Origin: Comamonas sp.
Lineage (GTDB): Bacteria > Pseudomonadota > Gammaproteobacteria > Burkholderiales > Burkholderiaceae_C
Assembly: GCA_028690035.1 (NCBI GenBank)
Contig: JAQVCA010000004.1
Location: forward strand, 1 to 64,000
Reading direction: 5' to 3'
Length of the DNA stretch: 64,000 nucleotides
Shown: positions 53,175-59,185 of the stretch, piece after piece
Layout of the letters: every line of letters begins with the position of its first letter
Numbering within the stretch: position 1 is the stretch's first letter
Position numbers and translations under genes: made by a program
The notes under the pieces: generated by a model
Told to the model about the DNA's origin: nothing
The model's database searches: none
Seen by the model: only the letters and a program-made list of their open reading frames with translations

Positions 53175-55772
<2,598 letters not shown>

Positions 55773-55783
55773 TTTCTTCAAAA

Positions 55784-55845
55784 ATTAGAGCTGCTAGCGC
55801 TTGCCAGATAAGGCTTGGAGCCACAAAAGGCTCCAAGCTTTTTTT
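55784..55845. repeat. Dispersed palindrome copy 12 with gyrB terminator
   Basis: The left end AGAGCTGCTAGCGCTTGCCAGATAA is intact. The right end has been replaced by a 10-bp hairpin GCTTGGAGCC/GGCTCCAAGC with a 6-nt loop and seven T (55813-55845). It separates gyrB from the convergent YqhA gene. Confidence 0.75.
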
Positions 55846-55860
55846 CAGCGTTGTGTCGCT

Positions 55861-56487
55861 TTAATGGTGCCCCGCATGGCTGCTGTGAATCAGCTTGTCG
55901 GTATAGGCAATGGCCAGGGCACTGAACAAGAAGGCCACGTGGATGATGGTTTGCCACATCAGCACTTTGGCGTCGGAGTTGCCCGCGTTGATGAAGGTCT
56001 TGAGCAGGTGGATGGAGCTGATGCCAATGATCGACAGCGCCAGCTTGACCTTGAGCACCGAGGCGTTGACGTGGTCCAGCCATTCGGGCTGATCGGGGTG
56101 GCTGTCCAGGCCCAGGCGGCTCACAAAGGTTTCGTAGCCGCCCACGATCACCATGATCAGCAGGTTGGAGATCATGACCACATCGATCAGCGCCAGCACG
56201 ACCAGCATGATGATGGTTTCATTCAGGCCCGTCAGCGGCCTGTCGGGTGTGTAGCCAATGTTGTTGACCAACGCTTGCAAGTCAGCCTGGTTGCCAAAGG
56301 CCGCACCAATCAGGTGCCACAACTCGACCAGAAAGAGCCAGACGTACACGCCTTGCGCGGCAATCAGCCCCAGGTAGAGCGGCAGCTGCAGCCAGCGGCT
56401 GGCAAAAATCAGACTGGGCAGGGGGCGCATGGGCGACGCAGCAGGTGTGCCTGCGGGTGACTTGGGAGAGGGGTCTGAGGAGGCCAT
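55861..56487 (-). CDS. YqhA family (UPF0114) membrane protein
   Basis: This is a 208-residue protein with four transmembrane helices. The family segments [40 protein letters not shown] and [18 protein letters not shown] are clear. The function of UPF0114 is unknown. An internal start at 56430 would remove the charged 19-residue N-terminus. It is convergent with gyrB and divergent from the antiporter gene. Confidence 0.88.
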
Positions 56488-56629
56488 AAAGGGTAGAGAT
56501 CAATGGGTTGCAGAACCTGCACGCAAAGGCGGCAGGGCGGCGATTCTAGGGACATCTTGTGTCCGGCACTGGTAAAAAACGCAGAGGTCCAGCCCACCCA
56601 CCCGGCATGGCAAAGCCCGCACTGTGGGG

Positions 56630-56658
56630 GCGTTGCAACGCTGGACGCTCTCTATAAT
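56630..56658 (+). promoter_or_regulatory. Promoter and palindrome upstream of the antiporter leader
   Basis: A perfect TATAAT lies at 56653-56658. Upstream is TTGCAA (56633-56638), 14 bp away, within a perfect 12-bp palindrome GCGTTGCAACGC (56630-56641). The spacing is short for a -35, so the palindrome may be an operator instead. The transcript would start near 56664. Confidence 0.55.
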
Positions 56659-56662
56659 CGCC

Positions 56663-56739
56663 CGCTGGGTGGCACGCCATAGGGGCATGCCAGGACAGCA
56701 GCGAAGGTCGGGCCGCCTCGCTGCTTTTTTACGTCCTGC
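56663..56739 (+). promoter_or_regulatory. Riboswitch-like attenuator leader of the Na+/H+ antiporter gene
   Basis: About 75 nt between the promoter and the start codon. A hairpin TGGCA-GCC/GGC-TGCCA (56670-56692) is closed by CGCTG/CAGCG (56663-56667 with 56699-56703). The second strand of that closing stem is also the left arm of an intrinsic terminator (56698-56704 with 56718-56724, six T). The two folds exclude each other. CAGGAC (56691-56696) can also pair with GTCCTG just before the ATG. The ligand is unknown. Confidence 0.6.
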
Positions 56740-58008
56740 ATGTCTATGTTTCCTGTCCCCATGGAATGGATCGCCGCATCCGTTTTTGCTATCGCCCTCG
56801 TCCACACTTTTGCCGCCAAGCAGCTCGAGCGCCTGTCCCACCGTTTTCCCCGCCACGCCGGACTGTTTCACCTGCTGGGTGAGGTTGAGGTGGTGTTTGG
56901 CTTTTGGGCGATGGTGCTGATCGTGCTCATGGCCCTGACCTCGGGCAGCCATGCGGCCCTGCACTACGCCGAAACGCGCAATTACACCGAGCCGCTGTTT
57001 GTGTTTGTGGTGATGGTGATTGCCGCCTCCAAGCCCGTGCTGGCCACGGTGGTGTCGTGGGTGAACGGCATCGCCCGGCTCATGCCCCTGCCCACGCCAT
57101 TGGCCACCGCCTGGCTGGGTCTGGCAGGCGTGCCGCTGCTGGGCTCACTGATCACCGAACCGGCCGCCATGACGATTGCGGCTCTGATGCTGGGCACACA
57201 GATTTTTCGTCCCCATGTCCCCGAAGGGCTGAAGTACCTGGCGCTGGGTGTGCTGTTTGTGAACATCTCGATCGGTGGCACGCTGACTTCCTACGCCGCA
57301 CCCCCGGTGCTGATGGTGGCCAGCACCTGGCAGTGGGACAGCGTCTTCATGTTCACCACCTTCGGCTGGAAGGCTGCGCTGGCCGTGCTCACCAACGCCA
57401 GCGTGGCCTGCTTTTTGCTGCGCACGCACCTGCGCCCCACTTTGCCAGGCAACGAAGATTTGCCCGCTCCGGCGCGCGTGCCGCTGGCCGTGGTCGTGGT
57501 GCATCTGGCGCTGCTGGCCGGGGTGGTGCTGTGCGCCCACCATCCGGTGATTTTTCTGGGGCTATTTTTGCTGTTTCTGGGCTTTACCCAGGCCTATGAA
57601 CAGCACCAAAGCCCGCTCATCCTGAAAGAAGCACTGCTGGTGGGCTTTTTCCTGGCCGGTCTGGTAGTGCTGGGCGGCATGCAGCAGTGGTGGTTGCAGC
57701 CGGTGGTGGCGGGCCTGGAGCCGCTGGCCCTGTTTGCGGGTGCGGTGGGCCTGACGGCCATCACCGACAACGCGGCGCTGACGTATCTGGGCTCTTTGAT
57801 CGTGGGCATTTCCGACGAGGCCAAGTACATGCTGGTGGCCGGTGCGGTCGCTGGTGGCGGTTTGACCGTGATTGCCAACGCACCCAATCCTGCGGGGGTG
57901 GCTTTGCTCAAACGCGGCTTTGCCGATGAAACGGTGGGCGCTGCTGGGCTGCTGCTGGGGGCTTTGGCCCCGACGGTGGTGGCCATGGCAGCATTCATGC
58001 TGCTTTGA
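56740..58008 (+). CDS. Putative Na+/H+ antiporter
   Basis: This is a 422-residue membrane protein with about 11-12 helices. It fits the putative Na+/H+ antiporter family known in betaproteobacteria (DUF1504 type). Conserved polar membrane motifs are SLITEPAAMTIAALML, SIGGTLTSYAAPPVLM, AITDNAALTYLG and VIANAPNPAGVALLKR. The TDNAALTYLG and NAPNPAG blocks resemble ion-binding broken helices of ion transporters. ATG at 56740 has no clear ribosome site; a second ATG is two codons later. A structured leader precedes it. Confidence 0.8.
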   Translation: MSMFPVPMEWIAASVFAIALVHTFAAKQLERLSHRFPRHAGLFHLLGEVEVVFGFWAMVLIVLMALTSGSHAALHYAETRNYTEPLFVFVVMVIAASKPVLATVVSWVNGIARLMPLPTPLATAWLGLAGVPLLGSLITEPAAMTIAALMLGTQIFRPHVPEGLKYLALGVLFVNISIGGTLTSYAAPPVLMVASTWQWDSVFMFTTFGWKAALAVLTNASVACFLLRTHLRPTLPGNEDLPAPARVPLAVVVVHLALLAGVVLCAHHPVIFLGLFLLFLGFTQAYEQHQSPLILKEALLVGFFLAGLVVLGGMQQWWLQPVVAGLEPLALFAGAVGLTAITDNAALTYLGSLIVGISDEAKYMLVAGAVAGGGLTVIANAPNPAGVALLKRGFADETVGAAGLLLGALAPTVVAMAAFMLL

Positions 58009-58033
58009 CTGTGCCCCTGGAACCCACAGCCGC

Positions 58034-59185
58034 TCAACCGACAAAGCGCCCGCTGTTGCCCAGCACGCCCAGGTCGATATAGCGCGAGCCCACAAACGGG
58101 GGCTGGCCGCCGTAGTCCACGACAAAGCCGCCCAGATCAAAATTGCGAATGCTGGCCAGCGCCGCGCGCAGGCGGATGGGGGCCGGGTCTTTGCCCACGC
58201 GGCGCAGGCCGTCAATGAGCACGCGGGCGTTGATGTAGGCCTCCAGGCTGGCCGACGAAAACTCTTGGTGGCCAATGGCGCGCATGGCCGCTTGGTAGTC
58301 GCGCACCACGGCGCTCTTGCCCTTGTCCGGGTCGGGCACGATGGTGGTCACGGCCACACCGCTGGCCGCCCCGTCCAGCTTCAGCCCGTGCAGGGTCACA
58401 CTCAGGCCTGCGATCAGCACACCGGGCAGCTGTTGTTTGATGCCGCGCACCATGTCCAGCGAAGGCGTGCCCGCCGTGGCCAGCAGCACGGCCGAGGGAC
58501 GTGCCTGCTTGAGCACTTGCAGCACCTGGGCCTGGTTGTCGCCGCGCACATTCAGTGCCACTTCGGCGGCCATGCTGGCGTTGTTTTTTTGCATTTCGGC
58601 TATGGCCACTTGGTGCATTTCGCGGCCATAGCCGTTGTCCAGATACACCACAGCAATGCCCTTGAGGCCCATACCCACCAGGCGCTGCACCAGGCGCTGC
58701 ATCTCCTCGGTGTAGCCCGCGCGCACGTGGAACACATAGCGCTCGTCCTTGCGCAGCGAGGCAGCGCCGCTGATGGGCGCCACATGCGGGATGCCGGCGG
58801 TTTCGATCAGCGGGGTGATGGCGGTGTTGTTCGCCGTGCCCACGCAGGATAGAAAGGCCAGGGCACTGCCCTCTTGCAAAATTTTTTTCACATTGGCGAC
58901 GGTGCGCTCGGGCTCGTAGCCGTCATCGACCAGCGCCAGCTTGAGCTGGCGGCCATGCACCCCGCCCTGAGCGTTGACCTGGGCAAAAGCTGCACCCGCG
59001 CCCTGCTCGATGGCCTGACCAAATCCAGCCAGCGTGCCGGTCAGCGCCAGTGAGCTGGCGATGGTGATGCGCTGATCGGTCACGCCCGGTGCCGTCTCCT
59101 GGGCATGGCCGGTCATGGCCCAAGTGGGCACCGCCATGCCCATCGCCGCCTGGGTCAGACGGGAAATAAATCGACGACGCAGCAT
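58034..59185 (-). CDS. ABC transporter substrate-binding protein, LivK type
   Basis: This is a 383-residue periplasmic binding protein of the branched-chain amino acid family. It has an RRRF-containing, Tat-like signal peptide ending near GHAQ. The mature fold has ITIASSLALTGTLAGFGQAI, FAQVNAQGGVHGRQLKLALVD and TANNTAITPLIETAGIPHVAP. No LivFGHM genes are next to it, so it is an orphan receptor or serves a transporter elsewhere. The ligand is unknown. Confidence 0.9.
   Translation of the reverse strand: MLRRRFISRLTQAAMGMAVPTWAMTGHAQETAPGVTDQRITIASSLALTGTLAGFGQAIEQGAGAAFAQVNAQGGVHGRQLKLALVDDGYEPERTVANVKKILQEGSALAFLSCVGTANNTAITPLIETAGIPHVAPISGAASLRKDERYVFHVRAGYTEEMQRLVQRLVGMGLKGIAVVYLDNGYGREMHQVAIAEMQKNNASMAAEVALNVRGDNQAQVLQVLKQARPSAVLLATAGTPSLDMVRGIKQQLPGVLIAGLSVTLHGLKLDGAASGVAVTTIVPDPDKGKSAVVRDYQAAMRAIGHQEFSSASLEAYINARVLIDGLRRVGKDPAPIRLRAALASIRNFDLGGFVVDYGGQPPFVGSRYIDLGVLGNSGRFVG

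Follow-up and report, generated by a model that had tools for sequence, protein, structure and literature searches.

The nhaA-I RNAs that have been tested are Li+-selective ON switches, and the class has been named Li+-I (White et al., 2022; PMC9646797). In the text of that paper it is suggested, as a speculation, that most Li+-I members work through the ribosome binding site, and pfam07399 is listed beside pfam06965 as NhaA proteins. The nhaA-I variants with terminators are described there from Deltaproteobacteria only; the one tested has C at one position where U is usual, and it responds to Na+ (Na+-II), and a triple array with terminators is placed upstream of nhaD, its ligand not being established in that text. 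A similar two-stem plan is ascribed in the same text to the Na+-I (DUF1646) riboswitch, which is likewise an ON switch (PMC9337991). The text of PMC11200750 has as its subject the proteins of the name nhaA-I.

In this work we analyzed a leader in a stretch of 64,000 nucleotides from Comamonas sp. (the window); its features are collected in Table 1. The window as a whole gave a single Rfam match at the gathering threshold, RF03057 (nhaA-I), on the plus strand (45.7 bits versus a gathering score of 37; model positions 1-55 of 55; E 4.7e-8 for a search of 401 bases). In a permissive search of 56500-56900, nhaA-I was the sole family at E ≤ 1, and the Rfam models for Na+-I (DUF1646), which differs from the window in this respect, and Li+-II (nhaA-II) gave no match at that level. 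Within the class this is not a high score (the top RF03057 score in the window's family is 57.4 bits), and the folding energy of 56650-56745 is only modestly low (z -2.28; 5 of 200 shuffles equally stable); the leader is taken to be more than chance because of the Rfam match, with its E of 7.6e-6 over 64 kb. An earlier note, made from the letters of the window, had proposed that a cation antiporter gene is preceded here by a riboswitch leader. The RF03057 match and the PF07399 gene bear this out, and of the classes that the note had listed for an Rfam check (nhaA-I, nhaA-II, DUF1646), nhaA-I was found, so that the leader, which the note had not managed to assign to a named Rfam class, does match one. 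The antiporter protein gave no NCBIfam match. The window shares with Li+-I, as described in the text of PMC9646797, the full-length model, the P1/P2 plan, the conserved core and the antiporter target (pfam07399 in that paper); it differs in its extended P2 with a T-run, and its YGNYY element and adjoining -10 box fall outside the Rfam model. We concluded that the leader is a genuine member of a described class, with novelty limited to details of the platform and of promoter placement. Very probably the PF07399 antiporter mRNA begins with a Li+-I (nhaA-I) riboswitch, which is most likely an ON switch that acts mainly on the translation start and is possibly aided by termination.

Table 1. Features of the antiporter leader and gene (window positions)
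Feature	Coordinates	Strand	Basis
-10 box TATAAT, 8 nt before GGGTG	56653..56658	+	letters; position-conserved in leaders
Li+-I (nhaA-I) riboswitch aptamer	56667..56720	+	RF03057, 45.7 bits, full model
P1, 56671-56678 with 56684-56691, one C-A mismatch (56675/56687)	56671..56691	+	Rfam alignment; covariation
P1-P2 linker including conserved AGG (56692-56694)	56692..56701	+	Rfam alignment
Extended P2, 56697-56704/56718-56725, then T-run 56725-56730, terminator-like	56697..56730	+	predicted -16.2 kcal/mol
P2 with bulged A, loop GGUCGGGCC and loop U at 56708	56701..56721	+	Rfam alignment; covariation
YGNYY element (CGTCC), +14..+18 after P2 strand GCC, possible P2-loop partner	56732..56736	+	offset conservation
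Start region, predicted partner 56683-56696 in ligand-free leader	56733..56745	+	folds of 56665-56745 and 56665-56775
Putative Na+/H+ antiporter gene, PF07399 (Na_H_antiport_3), 422 aa	56740..58008	+	616.4 bits, E 3.4e-185

For comparison, 168 distinct leaders were collected, 119 preceding a PF07399-type gene and 49 preceding other genes. The search pattern fixes GGG[TC]G, AGG and GGNCGGGCCNCC, and the invariance of these letters is therefore by construction. Nine covariance-model loci outside the pattern, every one with TCGGGCC in the loop, were omitted; L217 and L184 look doubtful. A start codon is present in 115 of the PF07399 leaders and lies within 60 nt in 103. Redundancy removal left 99 leaders, of which 97 were aligned (L214 and L216, with a long P1, were excluded). 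Among 80 protein-based loci, the first pattern located the motif within 500 nt upstream in 36 and not in 44. Over the 97 aligned leaders, 88.0% of the P1 and P2 cells were paired compared to 75.8% after shuffling, and the covariation score of the two stems was 0.336 versus 0.125 ± 0.009. Changes on both sides were seen in 11 of the 15 P1/P2 pairs (7 of 8 within P1), and one P2 pair alternates between A-U, C-G and U-A; four of the 15 are invariant and hence uninformative, the letters of three being partly set by the search pattern. The two-stem covarying aptamer is thereby shown, and so is a conserved core: the C preceding AGG in the linker is invariant (97/97) though the search pattern left it free, and the P2 loop U is found in 168/168 leaders at a position where the pattern permitted any base. 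A scan for further covarying column pairs was left unused; its z-values were inflated on invariant columns because the weights were not permuted along with the letters.

RF03057 was detected in 94 of 399 genomes of the window's family and in 47 of 53 genomes of its genus (48 matches, one below gathering), and the relatives are Burkholderiales. The coupling to an antiporter is strict within the genus: all 48 matches sit 34-314 bases upstream of an antiporter domain, NhaA (PF06965) in 31 cases and PF07399 in 17. The same 53 genomes contain PF06965 in 32 and PF07399 in 16 (31 with PF06965 only, 15 with PF07399 only, one with both, six with neither). The genomes with either antiporter are exactly the 47 with the riboswitch, and the six without the RNA have neither gene. 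In the genome with both genes (G787), the PF06965 gene is alone among genes of both kinds in having no aptamer upstream. The window's own genome carries one RF03057, one PF07399 and no PF06965. In some PF07399 leaders of the genus (L115, L187-L193, L195) the gene match begins about 100-120 nt past the aptamer and not about 25. One further leader (L164) has an RF03057 aptamer ahead of a PF03600 gene resembling NhaD (NF038006 above cut-off, TIGR00775 below).

The promoter also points to the aptamer. TANNNT occurs inside the 19 nt preceding GGGTG in 166/168 leaders, compared to 11/168 in a control stretch at -60..-41, and the gap between the two is 6-9 nt in at least 157 leaders (8 in the window). 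Transcription begins about seven bases after a -10 box. Given this placement of the box, the aptamer should be where transcription begins, and the transcript start is expected from the letters at about 56664-56667, inside the left arm of a closing stem proposed in the earlier note. A start downstream of 56700, which that note had named as a case against its own proposal, is not borne out: the conserved -10 box predicts the position just given. A sigma-70 promoter scan of 55500-58500 returned no site because a good -35 box is absent.

For the step from aptamer to gene we relied on predicted folds. In the ligand-free leader, 56733-56745 would be paired with a segment at about 56683-56696, made up of the 3' strand of P1 together with the linker, and the start codon would be masked, with P2 extended into a terminator-like stem inside this pairing; ligand binding would restore P1 and free the start codon. 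By analogy with the tested RNAs, rising Li+ would stabilise both aptamer stems and the linker as they stand in the bound fold, switching the exporter ON. The predicted energy of 56665-56775 is -46.7 kcal/mol for the free fold and -41.4 kcal/mol with the aptamer stems forced, and the unpaired probabilities of A, T and G at 56740-56742 are ∼0 in the former and 0.36, 0.45 and 0.82 in the latter; these values are in line with a translational ON switch, although GUCC (56733-56736) is still paired with the linker even when the aptamer is forced. The pairing CAGGAC (56691-56696)/GTCCTG (56733-56738) before the ATG at 56740, whose letters the earlier note had placed correctly, does form in the window's own predicted fold, whereas over 97 leaders it reaches 60.0% paired cells versus 60.4% after shuffling; it is not conserved family-wide and is kept as a prediction for the window only. 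Across 103 leaders, the start region does not favour any one partner (mean pairing values of 0.21 with the linker, 0.17 with P1 and 0.13 with the P2 loop). The linker and downstream sequence are more complementary with their own than with swapped partners (-8.23 versus -7.77 ± 0.17 kcal/mol; 3/1000 as low), a difference that we did not use as proof because relatedness was not removed, and the same test gave no such difference for the P2 loop and P1 (284/1000 and 83/1000 as low, respectively). SD-like strings are present in 18/103 PF07399 leaders (9.2 ± 2.6 after shuffling). The window has no clear Shine-Dalgarno sequence preceding the ATG at 56740, and in-frame ATGs lie downstream at 56746 and 56761; the true antiporter start is uncertain for these reasons.

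Control of the translation start is more likely than termination, termination being possible. A mainly transcriptional platform on the same aptamer, which we consider unlikely though worth weighing, would have the ligand-free linker and the P2 3' flank form an intrinsic terminator (56697-56730), and Li+ would dock the linker, keep P2 short and let the polymerase pass. Such a platform is suggested by the 8-pair bulged stem of -16.2 kcal/mol with the T-run behind it, and by the in-line probing changes of the class, which are strongest in the linker according to the text of PMC9646797. T-runs of at least 4 are found in 21/103 PF07399 leaders and T-runs of at least 6 in 6/103, above the column-wise shuffled levels of 11.5 ± 2.5 and 1.3 ± 1.1, in which relatedness remains. 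The extension pairs show some covariation (0.275 versus 0.188 ± 0.022 shuffled) with a weak excess of pairing (52.1% versus 46.8 ± 1.9). However, the extended stem is common to seven leaders, namely L001 (the window), L013, L205, L207, L221 and L229 of the window's genus and L171 of another genus, and a T-run of at least 4 follows in only 3/7 (L001, L171, L207); such a run is missing from 82/103 PF07399 leaders, P2 as such would be formed in the ligand-free and the bound state alike, and the text of PMC9646797 gives terminator-bearing members only from Deltaproteobacteria. The U-tract may matter in a minority of leaders. A terminator scan of 55500-58500 did not list the extended P2 stem, probably because of the bulge. 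The earlier note had described here a 7-bp terminator (GCAGCGA, 56698-56704; TCGCTGC, 56718-56724; six T, 56725-56730), and stem and T's are indeed in place; what it did not recognise is an aptamer stem, for this is the known P2 grown by 4-5 pairs into the linker. The genus also contains NhaA leaders (L113, L200, L201, L222) with a G+C-rich hairpin (GGGGCC-GCAA-GGCCCC or similar) and then three T between the aptamer and the ATG; in L114 the hairpin is present without the T's. The GGCCC of this hairpin complements GGGCC in the P2 loop, perhaps as another platform.

A second element lies 3' of the aptamer. In the 103 PF07399 leaders the P2 strand GCC is followed by GG at +4/+5 (74 and 88%), a T-rich stretch and C-G-N-C-C at +14..+18. 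YGNYY is found at the last offset in 76/119 PF07399 leaders compared to 6.0 ± 2.5 after shuffling, and other offsets from -8 to +8 give 0 to 14. Since its distance to the ATG varies, the element is tied to the aptamer. Leaders of other genes carry it at the same offset in 9/49 (2.1 ± 1.3 shuffled), with 11 at -3 and 9 at +6, and because these offsets give no fewer it is well supported only before PF07399. In the passages of PMC9646797 covered here, no conserved 3' element is described. The YGNYY letters complement GGUCG of the P2 loop and could pair with it, breaking P2 (an anti-P2 OFF state); the logic is that of the Na+-I riboswitch in kefB, where a terminator competes with P2 (PMC9337991). 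This pairing is formed in 84.6% of cells versus 31.9-66.6% for slid versions; shuffles give 84.6% too because the loop on the 5' side never varies, and covariation is therefore no proof. In the window it is imperfect and predicted to be unfavourable (-33.1 versus -46.7 kcal/mol), and we offer anti-P2 as an idea about the family, not as the mechanism of the window. A betaproteobacterial Li+-I platform beyond the Rfam model, in which YGNYY at a fixed distance would serve anti-P2 pairing and a P2-based intrinsic terminator would operate in some lineages including that of the window, seems doubtful to us as a whole.

We consider it very improbable that the RNA is a Na+-II-like variant, i.e., nhaA-I architecture plus a terminator with Na+ rather than Li+ as the ligand. 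The aptamer architecture is alike in the window and in Na+-II as described in the text of PMC9646797, and the terminator-like stem and the antiporter target would speak for such a variant. In contrast, the window has U and not C in the loop, at the position (56708) that we infer from that text to be position 54 of D. propionicus; if this is the position that White et al. changed, the U found in 168/168 leaders is the Li+-type letter, and the window and its relatives would be of the Li+ type. The Na+-II set described in that text is from Deltaproteobacterial hosts and precedes genes of unknown function, whereas the relatives here are Burkholderiales, the host is betaproteobacterial and the target is the PF07399 transporter gene.

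The fold of the earlier note, a closing stem CGCTG (56663-56667)/CAGCG (56699-56703) round a hairpin TGGCA (56670-56674)/TGCCA (56688-56692) and exclusive with the terminator, can be set aside almost with certainty: the letters are all where they were said to be and the five-pair complement is present, but over 97 leaders the closing stem has neither pairing (50.0% of cells versus 49.4 ± 0.7 shuffled) nor covariation in excess, its left arm falls at the predicted transcription start, and forcing it gives -24.9 versus -32.4 kcal/mol for the free fold of 56660-56730 (7.5 kcal/mol worse). The closing stem was dropped on these grounds. The hairpin exists, but it forms the base of the known P1. The covariation check on homologous leaders that the note had called for thus divided its pairings, P1 and P2 covarying and the closing stem and CAGGAC/GTCCTG not.

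With the leader read as a Li+-I riboswitch, an experimentally validated class accounts for it and is tied to PF07399, a family whose Pfam name says only "putative" antiporter. The same riboswitch precedes either gene and the two genes occur together in 1/47 genomes, which suggests that in cation defence the PF06965 and PF07399 transporters stand in for one another. If the platform with the YGNYY element and the P2-based terminator were true, lithium-type aptamers would terminate transcription outside Deltaproteobacteria, which is unreported in the text of White et al. (PMC9646797). The step from signal to gene is left there as speculation for most members, and the YGNYY element is a concrete target for tracing the signal from the aptamer to the gene.
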